The notes under the pieces: model-generated
Told to the model about the DNA's origin: nothing
Database searches by the model: none
The model's input: only the letters and a program-made list of their open reading frames with translations
In this document: positions 8,438-17,705 of the stretch, piece by piece
Layout: each line of letters opens with the position of its first letter
How positions within the stretch are numbered: position 1 is the stretch's first letter
From: Spirochaetota bacterium
Lineage (GTDB): Bacteria > Spirochaetota > UBA4802 > UB4802
Reading direction: 5' to 3'
DNA: 54,303 bases
Assembly (NCBI GenBank): GCA_040756435.1
Contig: JBFLZD010000023.1
Location: forward strand, 1-54,303
Made by a program: the position numbers and the translations under genes

Positions 8438-8450
8438 AGAACCTCCATAA

Positions 8451-8495
8451 ATTTCACTATAGTGAAATTTATTACACTATAGTGAAATAAGTCAA
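8451..8495 (-). promoter_or_regulatory. Promoter with tandem TetR-type operators for DUF819/lyase operon
   Basis: Two 18-bp palindromes lie 20 bp apart centre to centre. 8451-8468 is a perfect palindrome, ATTTCACTATAGTGAAAT; 8471-8488 is ATTACACTATAGTGAAAT with one mismatch. On the minus strand a -35 TTGACT (8490-8495) and a candidate -10 ATAAAT (8467-8472, 17-nt spacer) place one operator inside the promoter spacer and the other over the predicted start. That is the geometry of repression by a TetR dimer on each site. The divergent tetR gene at 8659 is the obvious candidate. The sequences and spacing are seen directly; the regulator assignment is inferred. Confidence 0.75.
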
Positions 8496-8658: not shown

Positions 8659-9318
8659 ATGAAAAAAGCTGAACGAATCCAGTGGGAAAAAGACCAAAAG
8701 GTAAACAGATTTATTCAAATTGCACAGGGGATATTTTTTCAGAAAGGATATGACACAACAACTATCGACGAAGTAGCACAACTTGCTGGTTACAATAAAC
8801 GAACACTATATCATTATTTTAAGGATAAAGAAGAGTTATTTTTAGCAGTTGTTTTAGATGGGCTTAAGTTATTCAATAAAAAATTGCAGGAAGCATATGA
8901 TAACCCAATTGAAGGTCATACTAAGCTTTACAGTATGGGAAAAGCTTTTTTTACATTCTTTCTTGAATATCCTCATTATTTTAATCTCATAATGACATAT
9001 GAAGCTCGTAATTGTATATACTATCCAGCACAAGTTTCAAACGGTATAGGATTTTATAAAAATGAGTGTCAAAAAATTGCTGACAAAAATACTGAGTTGA
9101 TTTTGAAAGCTATAGAATACGGCATACAGGAAGGGAGCATTCATACTACTTTGACACCAAGACAGCTGATGGTAATACTATGGGGGCAGGTTTTTGGGAT
9201 TACACAGATAATTATGATGCGTCAAACATATTTTAAAGAAGCCTTTGGCATTGACCATACCGAATTGTTTGAAAAATTTCTACTTCACACAGAAAAATCT
9301 TTAAAAAACCCTATATGA
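8659..9318 (+). CDS. TetR/AcrR family transcriptional regulator
   Basis: A 219-residue one-component regulator. The N-terminal helix-turn-helix is typical of TetR (AQGIFFQKGYDTTTIDEVAQ, then NKRTLYHYFKDKEELF), followed by an all-helical ligand domain of about 150 residues ending near LLHTEKSLK. It is transcribed away from the DUF819/lyase operon; the 221-bp gap holds two palindromic operators, so it most likely represses that operon in response to a lipid-like or hydrophobic effector (inference). No matching palindrome sits near its own start, so autoregulation would have to act from the shared gap. The Shine-Dalgarno is weak (AGGA about 12 nt upstream). A strong hairpin terminator follows the stop. 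Confidence 0.9.
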   Translation: MKKAERIQWEKDQKVNRFIQIAQGIFFQKGYDTTTIDEVAQLAGYNKRTLYHYFKDKEELFLAVVLDGLKLFNKKLQEAYDNPIEGHTKLYSMGKAFFTFFLEYPHYFNLIMTYEARNCIYYPAQVSNGIGFYKNECQKIADKNTELILKAIEYGIQEGSIHTTLTPRQLMVILWGQVFGITQIIMMRQTYFKEAFGIDHTELFEKFLLHTEKSLKNPI

Positions 9319-11229: not shown

Positions 11230-11979
11230 GTGAGAATTATTGCTATTTCAAACAATAAGGGAGGCGTGGGCAAAACTACAAGCACAGTAAATATTGCCGC
11301 CGCCTTACAGATTTTAGGGAAAAAAGTTCTTGTTATTGATATTGATCATCAGGCACAGTCAACATACCATTTTGGGTATAATCCCAATAATTTAACATAT
11401 TCAGTATATAATGTGCTTAAAGGGGAAATTGCCTATAAAGATGTAATTATTGACCGTGATGGATTGCATATTCTCCCATCAAAAAATGAACTTAAAGATA
11501 TTGAGTTTATTCCGTTACCAGCCAAAGAATTTTTATTAAAAGAAGCATTGGAAGGAATCTCCAGTTATGATTTTATCCTGATTGATTGTCCACCTTCATT
11601 GGGGATACTGACGCTGAATGCTCTGACATTTGCTCATGAAATATTGGTTCCCCTTCAGGTTCAATTTTTGCCATTTCATGGTATGTATAATTTGTTTGAG
11701 GCAGTGCAAATGGTAAAACGAAGACTTAACAAAGATATTGAGATAACCGGCATTATTGGTACCATGTTTAATCCAAAAAAACAAATAAACATTGAAGTAA
11801 TTGAAGAAACAAAAAAGCGACTTCCAGGTAAATTGTTTGAAACGCTTATACGCGAAAATGTTCTGCTGCAAGAAGCACCAAGCTGGGGAAAAACTATATT
11901 TGAATACAAACCTAACAGCAATGGTGCTGTAGATTACATGAATCTTACTAAAGAAATCTTAGAAAAGGATGTAAATTAA
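11230..11979 (+). CDS. ParA/Soj family ATPase (no ParB partner in view)
   Basis: A 249-residue deviant Walker-A ATPase. KGGVGKTT (10-17) contains the signature lysine, DIDHQAQSTYHFG is the switch I / A' region and FILIDCPPSLGILTLNAL is the Walker B region. Length and motifs match chromosomal Soj/ParA that dimerise on ATP and bind DNA. No parB and no parS-like palindrome is adjacent, so it may position some other cargo or act with a distant ParB. It starts with GTG, preceded by AGGA 8 nt upstream. Its stop overlaps the convergent kinase gene by 4 nt. Confidence 0.9.
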   Translation: MRIIAISNNKGGVGKTTSTVNIAAALQILGKKVLVIDIDHQAQSTYHFGYNPNNLTYSVYNVLKGEIAYKDVIIDRDGLHILPSKNELKDIEFIPLPAKEFLLKEALEGISSYDFILIDCPPSLGILTLNALTFAHEILVPLQVQFLPFHGMYNLFEAVQMVKRRLNKDIEITGIIGTMFNPKKQINIEVIEETKKRLPGKLFETLIRENVLLQEAPSWGKTIFEYKPNSNGAVDYMNLTKEILEKDVN

Positions 11980-13046
11980 AGTTTTGAGCTATCTATAACC
12001 TTCCTTGCCTGACGTTCTAATACCTGTACAGCAACAATTAACATAGCAAATCGTTTGTCTTTGGTTTGACCGTGGTAGAATCTATAATAAATCTGTTGAG
12101 CTATCACTGCAAGGCGGAACAAACCAAAACAGAAAAAATAATCAAAATCGCTCATATCAATACCACTTTTTTGCTGATAGCGTTCCACCAGTTCTTTGCG
12201 TGTAAGCGCTCCATCAAGATGAGTTGGCATTAATCGTATAAGATGTACTTCTTCTGGATCATCTTTTTCAACCCAGTATGCAAGCGAATTACCTAAATCC
12301 ATAACCGGGTCACCTATGGTTGCCATTTCCCAGTCAAGAACACCAATTATCTTTTTAGGATTATTACTATCAAGGACAACATTATCAAATTTATAATCAT
12401 TGTGAATCACTGCTGCTCGTGTTGGTGTTCTGGGCATTTTTTCCTGTAACCACTGAATGACTTCAGTGTACGGTGGAGCATCAGGGGTCAGAGCATCATT
12501 ATAGCGTGCAATCCATCCATTAACCTGACGTTCAATATATCCTTCAGGTTTGCCAAAATTTTCCAGTCCAATTTCTTTATAATTCAGTGAATGAAGCTGG
12601 CACTGTATATCCAGTAACTGTTCACAAAGATATCTAAATTCGTCAGATGTATATGATAATCCTGGTGGCAATTCTTTACGTAATATAATCCCTTTAATAC
12701 GTTCCATAACATAAAATTTAGCGCCAATGATTGATTCATCATCACAATATACAAGAGGTGTGGGGCAATATGGAAATACAGGCTTTAATGCTTTCAGTAT
12801 TGAGTATTCACGATGCATATCATGAGCTGTTTTTGCTTTTTTGCCAAATGGGGGCCTTCGTAAAACCATTTCTCTGTTGCCGGCTTTGATAAAATACGTA
12901 AGGTTTGAAAATCCACTTGGAAATTGTTTTATTTCAATAGGACCTTGAATATCAGGGACATGCTGCATTAGATAATCCAGTATAATTTTACCGTCTATCG
13001 TTTCCCCTTCCCTGATTTCAGCTGGTTTATCAATATAATTATCCAT
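11976..13046 (-). CDS. APH-family phosphotransferase (ACAD10/11 kinase-like)
   Basis: A 356-residue aminoglycoside-phosphotransferase-fold kinase. The catalytic loop HNDYKFDN is at 215-222 and the magnesium-binding LDWE at 237-240, followed by GDPVMDLG. The N-lobe carries VLRRPPFG. This subfamily accompanies acyl-CoA dehydrogenases: it is fused to one in eukaryotic ACAD10/ACAD11 and is paired with one in Pseudomonas levulinate (lva) catabolism, where the kinase phosphorylates a 4-hydroxyacyl-CoA. Here the dehydrogenase gene is two genes upstream in the same operon. A role as a hydroxyacyl-CoA kinase is inferred from family and context; antibiotic resistance is unlikely. It is the last gene of the operon. 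Confidence 0.85.
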   Translation of the reverse strand: MDNYIDKPAEIREGETIDGKIILDYLMQHVPDIQGPIEIKQFPSGFSNLTYFIKAGNREMVLRRPPFGKKAKTAHDMHREYSILKALKPVFPYCPTPLVYCDDESIIGAKFYVMERIKGIILRKELPPGLSYTSDEFRYLCEQLLDIQCQLHSLNYKEIGLENFGKPEGYIERQVNGWIARYNDALTPDAPPYTEVIQWLQEKMPRTPTRAAVIHNDYKFDNVVLDSNNPKKIIGVLDWEMATIGDPVMDLGNSLAYWVEKDDPEEVHLIRLMPTHLDGALTRKELVERYQQKSGIDMSDFDYFFCFGLFRLAVIAQQIYYRFYHGQTKDKRFAMLIVAVQVLERQARKVIDSSKL

Positions 13047-13064: not shown

Positions 13065-13790
13065 TCAAAGTTTTATATAGTTGTATATAATCTGAAAACA
13101 TTCATGTGCATATTCATCAGGCGTTACACCCCTTTTCGTGTATTTCCACCGTTTTAGATACCAGTCCTGGAGCATGGCTTTGCTTATTGAAGCGACCAAT
13201 GATGACTGTATATCTGGACGGAATTCATTACTCTTGATACCTTTTTCAATAATATCTTTTATTAAAGATTCTGTTAACAGTTCACCTTCAATTGTTTTAT
13301 TGTATTCAGAGCCTGTGAAATATCGTGTTTCCATATATGAGAAATAAAACCAATCTTTTATAATTTCACTGATAAAGATATGAGCACGTATGAAATTGTG
13401 TAATTTATCTTTTGAAAGTGATGAATGCATTAGTGATTCAGATAATACCTTCTCTACAGAAGTGCGCCCATACTGTTGAATGATATGTAATAATTCATCT
13501 TTTGAAGGGAAATATGCATATAATGCACCAATACTTAACGATGATACTGCTGACAGTTCACGTATGCTCATTACTGCATAGCCTTTTTTATTACTTATTG
13601 CTATAGCTGTATGAATGATCCGTTTGAGATTTTCAATTGATTGCGGTGATTTTTTAACCCTGATAAGCTGCCTGTGATCATCATATAACTTACTAACAAT
13701 ATCATCAAGGATAAACTTTATACTTTTTTTAAAACTGTTAAAGTTTTCCAGGTCAACAATATGAATGTTATCTGACTTCTCTGCCTTCAT
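13065..13790 (-). CDS. TetR family regulator of the acyl-CoA dehydrogenase operon
   Basis: About 241 residues. The HTH (SIRELSAVSSLSIGALYAYFPSK) lies unusually deep, near residues 72-95, because a 50-residue N-terminal extension precedes it. I placed the start at the ATG at 13790, with AAAGGA about 13 nt upstream. The longer reading back to 13898 runs inside the dehydrogenase gene in another frame and adds a basic, hydrophobic stretch with no family support. The gene overlaps the dehydrogenase 3' end by 23 bp, so translation may be coupled. As the only regulator in the operon it is the best candidate to bind the palindrome at 15860-15877 and so autoregulate. Confidence 0.85.
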   Translation of the reverse strand: MKAEKSDNIHIVDLENFNSFKKSIKFILDDIVSKLYDDHRQLIRVKKSPQSIENLKRIIHTAIAISNKKGYAVMSIRELSAVSSLSIGALYAYFPSKDELLHIIQQYGRTSVEKVLSESLMHSSLSKDKLHNFIRAHIFISEIIKDWFYFSYMETRYFTGSEYNKTIEGELLTESLIKDIIEKGIKSNEFRPDIQSSLVASISKAMLQDWYLKRWKYTKRGVTPDEYAHECFQIIYNYIKL

Positions 13791-14976
13791 AACTAGATAA
13801 AATCCTTTTAGCAACAACCGTCTTATGTACTTCGTCAGCACCATCATAAATACGAGCAGCGCGTTCATGTCTGTAGAAGAAGGCCAATATAGTATCATCA
13901 GTCATCCCCAGTCCACCATGCACCTGCAGTGCTCTGTCTATCACCTTCTGCATAACATTTGCCACATAGAATTTGATAAGTGACACATCAATGCGTGCTT
14001 CTTTCTGACCTAAGTGTTCTATCTTCCATGCTGCTTGTAAGGTCATGAGGCGTGCTGCCTGAATTTCAGCAGCACATTCGGCAACCCATTCCTGAATAAT
14101 CTGACGGGTTGCCAGTGTTTTACCATCAGGCGAAATAATACGCTTGTTGGCACGTGCACACATTAAATCAAATGCGCGTTTGCAGATTCCAAGCCAGCGC
14201 ATGCAATGATGAATTCGGCCAGGACCCAAACGTTCCTGAGCTATCACAAAACCCTGACCTTCAGGACCCAGTAAATTTGTTACTGGTACACGACAGTTTT
14301 GTAATAATATTTCACCATGGCTAAAATAATCACTTCCTTCATGACCCATAACCGAAATATTGCGTACCAGATTGAAGCCGGGAGTATTTGTAGGTACAAT
14401 AATCATGCTTGCGCGCAGATATGTTGGTGCTTCTGGATTGGTGACAGCCATAACAATTGAAAATTTTGAGCCATCTGCGGCAGTGGAATACCATTTATGC
14501 CCGTTAATTACATAGTAATCACCATCTTTAACTGCGGTTGTATCCAGTAATACTGGGTTAGAGCCAGGCAGGTCAACCTCGGTCATGGAAAAGCAGCTAC
14601 GAATTTCACCCCTAACAAGTGGCAATAGATACTTTTCACGCTGCTCATCATTTGCATATTTTATCAGTATCTCTATATTGCCTGCATCAGGTGCCTGACA
14701 GCCAAATACATAGTGGCCTAATGGAGTCCTTCCCAATGACTCAGAAACAAGGCCGTGTTCCACTAAATCAAGCCCCATCCCACCATATTCTTTGGGAACC
14801 TGTGGTGCCCATAACTCCATCTTTTTTACCATTTTTCGCTTTTCTTCAAGAACTGGTAGCATTGCCTTTATATCATTGCGAGCAAATTCCTGTTCTAAGG
14901 GGATGAGTTCTTTTTCCACAAATTCATCAATAAGTTCCAGAATAGCTTTCATCTTATCACTGATTTCAAAATCCAT
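13768..14976 (-). CDS. Acyl-CoA dehydrogenase (ACAD10/11-like)
   Basis: A 402-residue flavoprotein dehydrogenase with the three ACAD parts in order: an N-terminal helical domain with WAPQVPKEYGGMGLD, a middle beta domain with CFSMTEVDLPGSNP and YVINGHKWYSTAAD (FAD contacts), and a C-terminal helical domain with QVHGGLGMTDDTILAFFYRHERAARIYDGADEVHK. The C-terminal RIYDGADEVHK is typical of the ACAD11 branch. Electrons would pass to the electron-transfer flavoprotein encoded divergently at 15978-17705. In ACAD10/11-type systems the dehydrogenase domain acts on the phosphorylated 4-hydroxyacyl-CoA made by the partner kinase; that activity is inferred here. It begins 24 nt after the phosphatase gene. 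Confidence 0.93.
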   Translation of the reverse strand: MDFEISDKMKAILELIDEFVEKELIPLEQEFARNDIKAMLPVLEEKRKMVKKMELWAPQVPKEYGGMGLDLVEHGLVSESLGRTPLGHYVFGCQAPDAGNIEILIKYANDEQREKYLLPLVRGEIRSCFSMTEVDLPGSNPVLLDTTAVKDGDYYVINGHKWYSTAADGSKFSIVMAVTNPEAPTYLRASMIIVPTNTPGFNLVRNISVMGHEGSDYFSHGEILLQNCRVPVTNLLGPEGQGFVIAQERLGPGRIHHCMRWLGICKRAFDLMCARANKRIISPDGKTLATRQIIQEWVAECAAEIQAARLMTLQAAWKIEHLGQKEARIDVSLIKFYVANVMQKVIDRALQVHGGLGMTDDTILAFFYRHERAARIYDGADEVHKTVVAKRILSSYEGREVR

Positions 14977-15000: not shown

Positions 15001-15720
15001 TCATCTATACGTCTTAAGCGATGGATCATTAGCTAACTCAATATGTGGGAAAAAATTAAACGAAGCTAAAATGAGTTCTTTTTCGTTATATCTTAGATGG
15101 GTCAATGATGTGTTAACTATCTGCCATGTTAGGCGCATTGCTGTTTCATCGTCAAAACCAAGAACCATCTGGACAATAGTACCAATAATTCCACCTGATG
15201 AAACAACAATAATATTCTTCCCCCTCCCATTTTCCTGTATAATTTGGGTGATAGCTGACCTTACCCGTTGTTTGACTTCAGGAAATGATTCAATCCCTTC
15301 ATAATTTTTCTGTGATTTTACCCAGTAACGCATAACTTTTTCAAATACACGCTGAAAAGCTTTTTTATCTGTATATATCTGCTTGATCTCCTCTTCAAGG
15401 GAAGGTTCGTCATCAAGTAAAACGGGAAAAATTGTTTTAATTATTGTTATTGAATCATATTCATTTAATCGGCTATCAATGTTAGGTTCAGGTAATTGAA
15501 CGCCTTTTAATTTAAAATAATTGATTATGGTTTGGGCAGTCTGTTGTTGTCGTTTTAATGTGCCACAATAGAGTGCATCAATTTTTTTATTTTTATAGCG
15601 ATAGTTGTATAGATATTCAGCCAGAATCTGTGATTGATTATACCCTTTTTCTGAAAGGTTATCATAATCACCCTGCCCAAAAGAACCCTGGCCATGACGG
15701 ATAACCAATATTTCACTCAT
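15001..15720 (-). CDS. Histidine phosphatase family protein
   Basis: A 239-residue phosphoglycerate-mutase-fold phosphatase. The catalytic RHG is at 8-10 (VIRHGQGSFGQ), LSEKGYNQSQ follows, and the second half has VVSSGGIIGTIVQMVLG, where a conserved His usually sits as SHGG; here it is SSGG. That replacement of the second catalytic histidine is odd and could reduce or alter activity. Other histidines are present but not in this motif. It is the first gene of the operon with the dehydrogenase, TetR and kinase, so a phospho-acyl or acyl-related substrate is plausible (inference). The promoter with a central palindrome lies 105-130 nt upstream. Confidence 0.85.
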   Translation of the reverse strand: MSEILVIRHGQGSFGQGDYDNLSEKGYNQSQILAEYLYNYRYKNKKIDALYCGTLKRQQQTAQTIINYFKLKGVQLPEPNIDSRLNEYDSITIIKTIFPVLLDDEPSLEEEIKQIYTDKKAFQRVFEKVMRYWVKSQKNYEGIESFPEVKQRVRSAITQIIQENGRGKNIIVVSSGGIIGTIVQMVLGFDDETAMRLTWQIVNTSLTHLRYNEKELILASFNFFPHIELANDPSLKTYR

Positions 15721-15824: not shown

Positions 15825-15909
15825 ACTATAAATAAGGCGCAAAAAAAGTCAAGAAAAATATAACGAACGTTCGTTATTTTCTTGATTTTTTTATCTATAC
15901 CATTACAAT
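15825..15909. promoter_or_regulatory. Back-to-back promoters with central palindromic operator (ACAD operon / etfBA)
   Basis: The centre is ATAACGAACGTTCGTTAT (15860-15877), a perfect 18-bp palindrome. To its left the minus strand reads TTGACT (15847-15852), 16 nt, TATAGT (15825-15830). To its right the plus strand reads TTGATT (15882-15887), 16 nt, TACAAT (15904-15909). The two -35 boxes thus flank the operator almost symmetrically, and the outer TCAAGAAAA/TTTTCTTGA arms extend the inverted repeat through them. A single dimeric regulator could control both the phosphatase-dehydrogenase-tetR-kinase operon and etfBA. The regulator identity (the TetR at 13065-13790) is inferred. Confidence 0.8.
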
Positions 15910-15977
15910 GGATTTAATTTAAAATATTAAAATAACTATACAATGTAATAGCAAGATTTAATATCAGGTAACAATGC

Positions 15978-16745
15978 ATGCTAACTAAATTAAAAATCCT
16001 TGTGTGTATAAAACAGGTTCCCGATACTAATGCTTCACTTTGTTTAAACAATGGAATGCCTGAATATGATGAAAAAACAGTATACGTAATTAATAGGTAT
16101 GATGAATATGCGCTTGAAGAAGCATTACAGTTAAAAGATCGTGATTTGACAGCGTATATACATACTATTTCTGTTGGACCAGGAAGAGTACAAAAAGCTT
16201 TACGACGTTCGCTGGAAATGGGAGCTGATGAAGCGTTTCACATACAAACCCAGGATGATGGGTTAAATACTCCATACGTGATTGCACAAACAATAACACA
16301 ATTTGCACAACATACCTATGACATTATATTCACAGGCGTAATGTCTGAAGATGCAATGAATCAGCAAACAGGACAGCTGATAGCGACAATGTTAGGATAT
16401 AATTATGCTACTGGTGTAACAGAACTATCGCTTATACAAAATACCATAACTGTAACCCGTGAGCTGGATGCACAGGAATCACTGATATATGATGTACCCA
16501 TCCCGTGTGTCATTTCTGTACAATCAAGTACACAAAAACCACGCTACCCTTCCCTCTCAAATGTACTGCGAGCACGCAAACAGGAAATTGCCATTATAAA
16601 ACCAGATTTAGCTATACCTTTTGCCCAAACAAAATGTCATTTTACCATGCCACAAAAAACAACACAATGCACGTTTATTGAAGGAAGCATGTTAAAAAAA
16701 GTTACTGAGCTATACGCTATTCTCCATAAAAATGCAGTTTTGTGA
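15978..16745 (+). CDS. etfB: Electron transfer flavoprotein beta subunit
   Basis: The 255-residue ETF beta/FixA subunit binds AMP and part of FAD in the heterodimer. Typical segments are KILVCIKQVPDT, INRYDEYALEEALQLKD, GPGRVQKALRRSLEMGAD and GVMSEDAMNQQTGQLIATMLG (nucleotide site), with a C-terminal PRYPSLSNVLRARKQEI recognition loop. That loop is where acyl-CoA dehydrogenases dock. It is the first gene of a two-gene operon, 6 nt before etfA, driven from the bidirectional promoter. An out-of-frame ATG lies four nt upstream; the in-frame ATG at 15978 gives the standard length. Confidence 0.95.
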   Translation: MLTKLKILVCIKQVPDTNASLCLNNGMPEYDEKTVYVINRYDEYALEEALQLKDRDLTAYIHTISVGPGRVQKALRRSLEMGADEAFHIQTQDDGLNTPYVIAQTITQFAQHTYDIIFTGVMSEDAMNQQTGQLIATMLGYNYATGVTELSLIQNTITVTRELDAQESLIYDVPIPCVISVQSSTQKPRYPSLSNVLRARKQEIAIIKPDLAIPFAQTKCHFTMPQKTTQCTFIEGSMLKKVTELYAILHKNAVL

Positions 16746-16751
16746 GGAACT

Positions 16752-17705
16752 ATGAGTATTTTAGTTATTGCTGATGTTAAAAACCGTACAGTAAATCCTT
16801 CAACCTTAGAAATGCTATCGGCTGCAAAAGAAATTGCTAATAAAAATAATATGCCAATCTATATATTGATTCCATTTGGAAATATTAGTGGCGATAGTTA
16901 CTGTTCAAATGAGTTTAAAACCTGTGTATTAGATTTAGACATTGAGCAATACAGAGCACTTAACCTTGTTAAGTATATTTCCACAGTTATACGGGAGATT
17001 AATGCTTCTTATATTATTGGGTTGCATACTCCATTTTCAATAGACTATATACCAGCACTGTCAGTAGAAATTAATGCACAGTGTGTTACGCAAATACACT
17101 CGTTAGATGTTTCTGAATATATTACTGTAACACGTGGCAGCCATGCTGGTAAGTTAGATCAACATATTGTTATAAATGAAACTCCAATTATAGTAACAGT
17201 ACTCCCGGGCAGTTTTGAGCCATATACTATTACTGATGTACAAACAAAAGAAATAATGATAATACACGTCCCTGAAAAAGATAAACATGCATATTGTAAT
17301 TTTATTACAAAGGATAGTAAGGATACATCGCTGGATGAAGCTGATGTAATTGTAGGTGCAGGCAAAGGAATTGGTTCACGGGAAAATTTAAATTTGATAT
17401 TTGAATTTGCAAAAGTATTTCCACATAGTGCTGTAGCAGGATCTCGTATTGTTTGTGATTATGGCTGGCTACCATATAGCAAGCAAATTGGTATAACTGG
17501 GAAAAGCATTGCACCCAAAGTATATATAGCCTGTGCAATTTCAGGTTCTTCGCAGCATGTGGCTGGTATTAAAGGAGCAAAAACAATAATAGCAATAAAT
17601 AAAGATCCCTATGCGCCTATTTTTAATGTTTCGCATTATGGAGTTGTGGCTGATATATTTGAATTTATTCCTCAATTCATTGATTTTGTACAAAATAATA
17701 CATGA
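16752..17705 (+). CDS. etfA: Electron transfer flavoprotein alpha subunit
   Basis: The 317-residue ETF alpha/FixB. The N-terminal domain I is followed by the conserved FAD domain: VIVGAGKGIGSRENL, VAGSRIVCDYGWLP, QIGITGKSIAPKVYIA, then GISGS-like AISGSSQHVAGIKGAKTIIAINKDP and a C-terminal PIFNVSHYGVVADIFEFIP. It forms the FAD-holding half that shuttles electrons from acyl-CoA dehydrogenases to ETF-quinone oxidoreductase. The RBS TGAGGAAC directly precedes the ATG. The divergent dehydrogenase operon is its likely client. No ETF-quinone oxidoreductase gene is in the window. Confidence 0.96.
   Translation: MSILVIADVKNRTVNPSTLEMLSAAKEIANKNNMPIYILIPFGNISGDSYCSNEFKTCVLDLDIEQYRALNLVKYISTVIREINASYIIGLHTPFSIDYIPALSVEINAQCVTQIHSLDVSEYITVTRGSHAGKLDQHIVINETPIIVTVLPGSFEPYTITDVQTKEIMIIHVPEKDKHAYCNFITKDSKDTSLDEADVIVGAGKGIGSRENLNLIFEFAKVFPHSAVAGSRIVCDYGWLPYSKQIGITGKSIAPKVYIACAISGSSQHVAGIKGAKTIIAINKDPYAPIFNVSHYGVVADIFEFIPQFIDFVQNNT

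Follow-up and report, generated by a model that had tools for sequence, protein, structure and literature searches.

A conserved palindrome between divergent promoters as the probable shared TetR operator of an ACAD10/11-type operon and etfBA in Spirochaetota and other lineages

The window, i.e. the whole 54,303-nt stretch of Spirochaetota DNA analyzed here, contains a divergent pair of operons (Table 1). The genes of the minus-strand operon are tightly packed, with one overlap, and face etfBA on the plus strand. An initial annotation of the same DNA had described a kinase/dehydrogenase operon and etfBA under common control, with a TetR gene inside one of the two operons. Kinase and dehydrogenase are indeed present; the first gene, however, encodes a histidine-phosphatase-like protein. 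The regulator was located as the third gene of the minus-strand operon, and its start at 13790 is backed by four orthologs from the genus.

Table 1. Predicted genes and control elements of the divergent locus (window coordinates)
Feature	Position	Strand	Details
Predicted shared TetR operator	15860..15877	.	ATAACGAACGTTCGTTAT; family consensus approximately RCGARCGNTCGY; in 83/86 related divergent gaps
Predicted promoter of the phosphatase-like/ACAD/TetR/kinase operon	15825..15852	-	TTGACT 15852-15847, 16-nt spacer, TATAGT 15830-15825
Predicted etfBA promoter	15882..15909	+	TTGATT 15882-15887, 16-nt spacer, TACAAT 15904-15909
Histidine-phosphatase-superfamily gene, gene 1 of the operon	15001..15720	-	PF00300; aligned to CobC
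ACAD10/11/LvaC-type acyl-CoA dehydrogenase (ACAD) gene	13768..14976	-	PF00441/PF02770/PF02771; best solved relatives ACAD11
TetR-family regulator gene, gene 3 of the operon	13065..13790	-	PF00440 and PF17932; 23-nt overlap with the end of the ACAD gene
APH-type small-molecule kinase gene (LvaA/ACAD11 kinase-domain type)	11976..13046	-	PF01636
etfB, electron-transfer flavoprotein beta	15978..16745	+	PF01012; locus-specific lineage
etfA, electron-transfer flavoprotein alpha	16752..17705	+	PF00766 and PF01012

The gap between the two operons holds a perfect 18-nt palindrome flanked by two divergent promoter-like pairs. Both pairs were found as originally proposed, with their 16-nt spacers. The palindrome itself was likewise confirmed while its placement midway between the promoters was not, as 7 nt separate it from the minus-strand -35 box and 4 nt from the plus-strand one. 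Its 14-mer core AACGAACGTTCGTT is identical in all five species of the genus. Two outer arms (15842-15857 and 15877-15892), said to run through both -35 regions, are 94% complementary, but their shared dyad was overstated. Their centre lies 1.5 nt off the palindrome centre, with 3 extra nucleotides on the left side, and being 3 nt out of register they were ruled out as a second layer of the palindrome's dyad. The arms are the two divergent -35 boxes together with A/T tracts, and their complementarity arises because divergent -35 boxes are necessarily inverted copies of one another. An RNA hairpin or terminator was also ruled out, since the palindrome lies upstream of both predicted starts and no terminator-like site was found.

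Two promoter matches in an AT-rich gap are no more than chance would provide (shuffle mean 2.6), and perfect palindromes of at least 18 nt are expected 0.55 times per window of the same composition (none with three CG steps). The palindrome 18-mer at up to three mismatches is expected 0.02 times. Palindrome and -35 boxes are significant because they are conserved across species, not by virtue of one sequence. Most genomes of the order have an ortholog of the TetR, and a collection scan located further ones in MAGs, many of them deltaproteobacterial and a few from Syntrophomonadaceae. An operator matrix was built from 20 Spirochaetota sites and run on all loci, a site being defined as a score of at least 12 in the gap. 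We counted 86 loci from Spirochaetota, 'Deltaproteobacteria' and Syntrophomonadaceae carrying the TetR with a phosphatase-like or dehydrogenase gene upstream of it; these loci share descent, and their counts represent non-independent events. The RCGARCGNTCGY palindrome was present in the gap, usually one facing etfBA, at 83 of the 86 loci, in 73 of the 76 with a divergent etfB in view and in 64 of the 67 held out from matrix training. The three loci below threshold (L125, L161 and L163) carry weaker, similar sequences. A top-scoring site was seen at the locus of a cultured relative, Desulfosarcina widdelii (L141). Dinucleotide-shuffled gaps yielded no operator site in 10 repeats, and match density was 71 in 26,061 gap positions compared with 1 in 1,008,677 positions elsewhere in the same loci. 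Symmetry arising by chance in an AT-rich divergent promoter region, devoid of regulatory meaning, would fit the expected numbers of promoter matches and palindromes for a single window but is refuted by conservation at the same place among these loci and its lack in shuffles; its probability is negligible.

The flanks with the -35 boxes were not part of the operator matrix. On the operon side, 82 of 83 loci have TTGACA within one mismatch at a distance of 3-10 nt from the operator (exact TTGACA in 52/83). The etf side is weaker and less conserved, with a -35-like box within one mismatch in 45 of the 83; shuffled flanks, the control for both counts, gave such a box in about 6 loci. The distance from one -35 box to the other is mostly 29-31 bp across loci. 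Conservation of these boxes in the flanks thus indicates that the back-to-back promoter arrangement itself is conserved. In some relatives, the operator is separated from etfB or from the operon by other genes (SDR, FMN reductase, nitroreductase, CoA ligase). One locus additionally contains, approximately 8 kb from the first copy, a second ACAD gene with the same type of TetR and a perfect operator core (L101:14925-16994), which suggests a duplication of the regulated unit.

The TetR protein carries the TetR_N helix-turn-helix domain (PF00440, E 4e-9) together with PF17932, and its model is an all-helical TetR fold (pLDDT 90.4). A palindromic operator in the own and divergent promoter, typical of the TetR family, is seen here on a comparative basis. 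Structural matches of the model in the PDB include FadR, AibR, PfmR and KstR2, making an acyl-CoA ligand plausible. AibR, KstR2, Bacillus FadR and PfmR are acyl-CoA-responsive repressors of catabolic operons, with ligands taken partly from structure titles. The window TetR shares their fold at low sequence identity (15-24%) and differs from them by extending further at the N terminus and by carrying the motif QDWYLKRWKY, which is conserved throughout its subfamily. Against the Bacillus FadR equivalog (NF053878) it scored 39.9 bits, below the curated cut-off of 200, and is thus placed outside this family.

The central claim of the initial annotation, that one operator serves both sides and is bound by the TetR of the operon, finds support in three observations: TetR and operator are conserved together over about 80 loci, one genome has lost both, and two other TetRs were excluded. 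The loss was seen in a single case, a member of the order (G011) that has neither a TetR ortholog nor an operator (best score 0.7 in 16 kb) and keeps the divergent ACAD (76% identical) and etfBA. A genome search had been expected to define the regulon. It returned the palindrome core, an exact 12-mer, at two sites only, and no larger regulon emerges from exact matches. The second copy, ACGAACGTTCGT (12 bp; L078:7664-7675, corresponding to G000:C24:26663-26674), is found 13-25 nt ahead of a further TetR gene, that of the C24 TetR, after which RND-type transporter genes follow.

This site raises the alternative that the palindrome is bound by a different TetR of the same cell, either the C24 repressor of the RND-transporter operon, which has the same 12-bp core just upstream of its own start, or the TetR at 8659-9318. 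With 27 TetR domains in the genome, candidates are plentiful. Of the other genus members, three conserve the C24 core site, whereas the fourth, G002, lacks both this site and the C24 TetR but keeps the divergon site. Further, the distant loci have only the operon's own type of TetR in common. The TetR at 8659-9318 was ruled out because it is served by a tandem operator of its own. Between a DUF819 gene and this TetR gene lie a perfect palindrome of 26 nt and, 20 nt further along, its second copy (TTCACTATAGTGAA type, 8447-8484), and since the pair is conserved upstream of this TetR in the genus, it probably constitutes that regulator's own operator pair. Scores were low for the sites near C14, C17 and C82, and the solo TetR paralogs L073, L076 and L077 have weak sites or none. 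Binding of the palindrome by another TetR is thus very unlikely; cross-talk between the C24 TetR and the operon's TetR at the operator is possible.

We consider it highly probable from the comparative sequence data that the palindrome serves as single operator for the operon's own TetR, which would act as an autoregulated repressor shutting both promoters until released by its ligand. The unliganded TetR dimer, or a pair of dimers, would occupy the 29-bp stretch between the divergent -35 boxes. With starts estimated at about 7 nt downstream of each -10 box, near 15916 (+) and 15818 (-), the operator core would span approximately -56 to -39 relative to the etfBA start and -59 to -42 relative to the operon start. 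Bound TetR would bar RNA polymerase from both promoters and repress the gene that encodes it. Release would come from an intermediate of the pathway, most likely an acyl-CoA (such as a 4-hydroxyacyl- or enoyl-CoA), so that both directions open together. As the operator is located just upstream of, and not on, both -35 boxes, repression requires that TetR cover about 28 bp or contact the polymerase directly. The same position, at -40 to -59 of each promoter, would also suit an activator or dual regulator, and AtrA is reported as a TetR-family activator of its divergent neighbor (PMC3511530). In the same study, however, most tested TetR-family members with divergent gaps below 200 bp repress, short divergent gaps usually indicating repression by the TetR protein (PMC3511530), and the near-consensus -35 box on the operon side is a better fit to repression than to activation. 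Activation appears unlikely to us. We infer repression rather than activation and an acyl-CoA ligand, just as TetR binding, start sites and substrate are predictions.

Regarding the enzymes under this presumed control, the best solved relatives of the dehydrogenase are ACAD11 structures. Its segments RLGPGRIHHCMR and YDGADEVH align with ACAD11, and the catalytic Asp D753 as well as the phosphate-binding residues R626, H634 and R637 (ACAD11 numbering) are invariant in aligned relatives. These are the catalytic Asp and phosphate-binding Arg/His residues named for ACAD11 (PMC12440821), and they mark the enzyme as an ACAD10/11/LvaC-type dehydrogenase. In case of the kinase, the ACAD11 kinase domain is among the best solved relatives (E 6e-50), and the best match is 9o56, an 'aminoglycoside phosphotransferase' entry. 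The conserved motifs HNDYKFDN and DWEMA (HxD...N and DxE) are those of an LvaA/ACAD11-type kinase. Because kinase and dehydrogenase match ACAD11 and LvaA-LvaC, the operon probably encodes 4-hydroxyacyl-CoA catabolism, with the two-step chemistry of these systems distributed over separate proteins. A 4-hydroxyacyl-CoA would be phosphorylated on its 4-hydroxyl by the kinase; the dehydrogenase-type enzyme would then take off the phosphate to give a 2-enoyl-CoA for beta-oxidation. SDR, 3-hydroxyacyl-CoA dehydrogenase or NDP-forming CoA-ligase genes adjoin the locus in several relatives. In G011, a gene of the HpaB family, which also includes 4-hydroxybutyryl-CoA dehydratases, follows the ACAD gene (L257:8162-9613).

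In the histidine-phosphatase-like protein, RH of RHG is retained in 79 of 79 aligned sequences (the Gly is sometimes Ala), and with it the nucleophile His. The second catalytic His is Ser in all 79, drawn from several phyla, which sets the protein apart from active branch 1. Phosphatase activity is therefore doubtful, and these proteins are possibly a non-catalytic or altered phosphatase family. By analogy, the Ser-for-His protein may parallel the largely inactive HAD domain of ACAD10.

The ETF had been described as the electron carrier of the pathway. The genome contains two ETF pairs, and in a phylogenetic tree the EtfBs of the divergon are split from other ETFs of the same genomes by a 100/99 branch; the ETF was therefore most likely inherited with the locus. 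A locus-specific ETF lineage is thus supported, the carrier role only half so, because the ACAD10/11/LvaC-type reaction needs no external acceptor, as reported for ACAD10/11 (PMC11342911). The ETF may serve the beta-oxidation steps that follow; alternatively, it may exchange electrons with the enzyme of this locus. If the ETF were the physiological acceptor of the dehydrogenase, the enzyme would be net oxidizing and not of the redox-neutral ACAD10/11 type, which is compatible with the proposed regulation and was weighed separately from it. Such a role would explain an EtfB clade tied to the locus and an operator common to ETF and operon, but all phosphate-binding and catalytic residues of ACAD11 are kept, and enzymes of this type manage without an external acceptor (PMC11342911). 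We regard it as possible, though on balance the less probable outcome.

A literature search did not find the regulator, the operator or the cluster described in the papers retrieved, with most subscription journals lying outside its scope. Tentatively, and with more doubt than confidence, we propose that an undescribed TetR family of Spirochaetota, deltaproteobacterial lineages and Syntrophomonadaceae couples an ACAD10/11-type 4-hydroxyacyl-CoA pathway, via a single operator with a -35 box on either side, to an ETF lineage of its own and to a histidine-phosphatase-like protein lacking the second catalytic His, and that a supposedly redox-neutral enzyme exchanges electrons with a dedicated ETF in anaerobes. 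This would provide a testable regulon, with regulator, operator and the two target units, for a pathway whose known examples come mainly from mammals and Pseudomonas and which, in the literature searched, is not described in anaerobes. It also raises the question why an enzyme type that is acceptor-free in mammals is inherited and regulated with a private ETF. Further, the order -35/operator/-35 has persisted across phyla and illustrates in compact form how a single site may control two promoters.

In mammalian ACAD10 and ACAD11, kinase and ACAD domains that share their catalytic and phosphate-binding residues with the present proteins are fused in one chain (PMC12440821, PMC11342911), whereas the proteins are separate here. 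ACAD10 additionally has a HAD domain with negligible phosphatase activity (PMC11342911), in place of which the present operon encodes the histidine-phosphatase-like protein. The lva operon of Pseudomonas putida likewise uses a separate kinase (LvaA) and ACAD10/11-type dehydrogenase (LvaC) for 4-hydroxyacyl-CoA. Its regulator is LvaR, an activator that carries a domain for interaction with sigma54, whereas we found a TetR gene and sigma70-like promoters and no such sigma54-dependent control at our locus; neither a phosphatase-like gene nor etfBA is among the lva genes in the portion of the description consulted. FadR of Thermus thermophilus is also a TetR-family protein, and its targets include an acyl-CoA dehydrogenase-etfB-etfA operon (PMC5597230). 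The parts of that report consulted name no kinase and no ACAD11-type enzyme among them. They place the ETF within the same operon, not across a divergent gap, and give the FadR consensus as TTRNACYNRGTNYAA, compared with RCGARCGNTCGY for the TetR family described here (PMC5597230).
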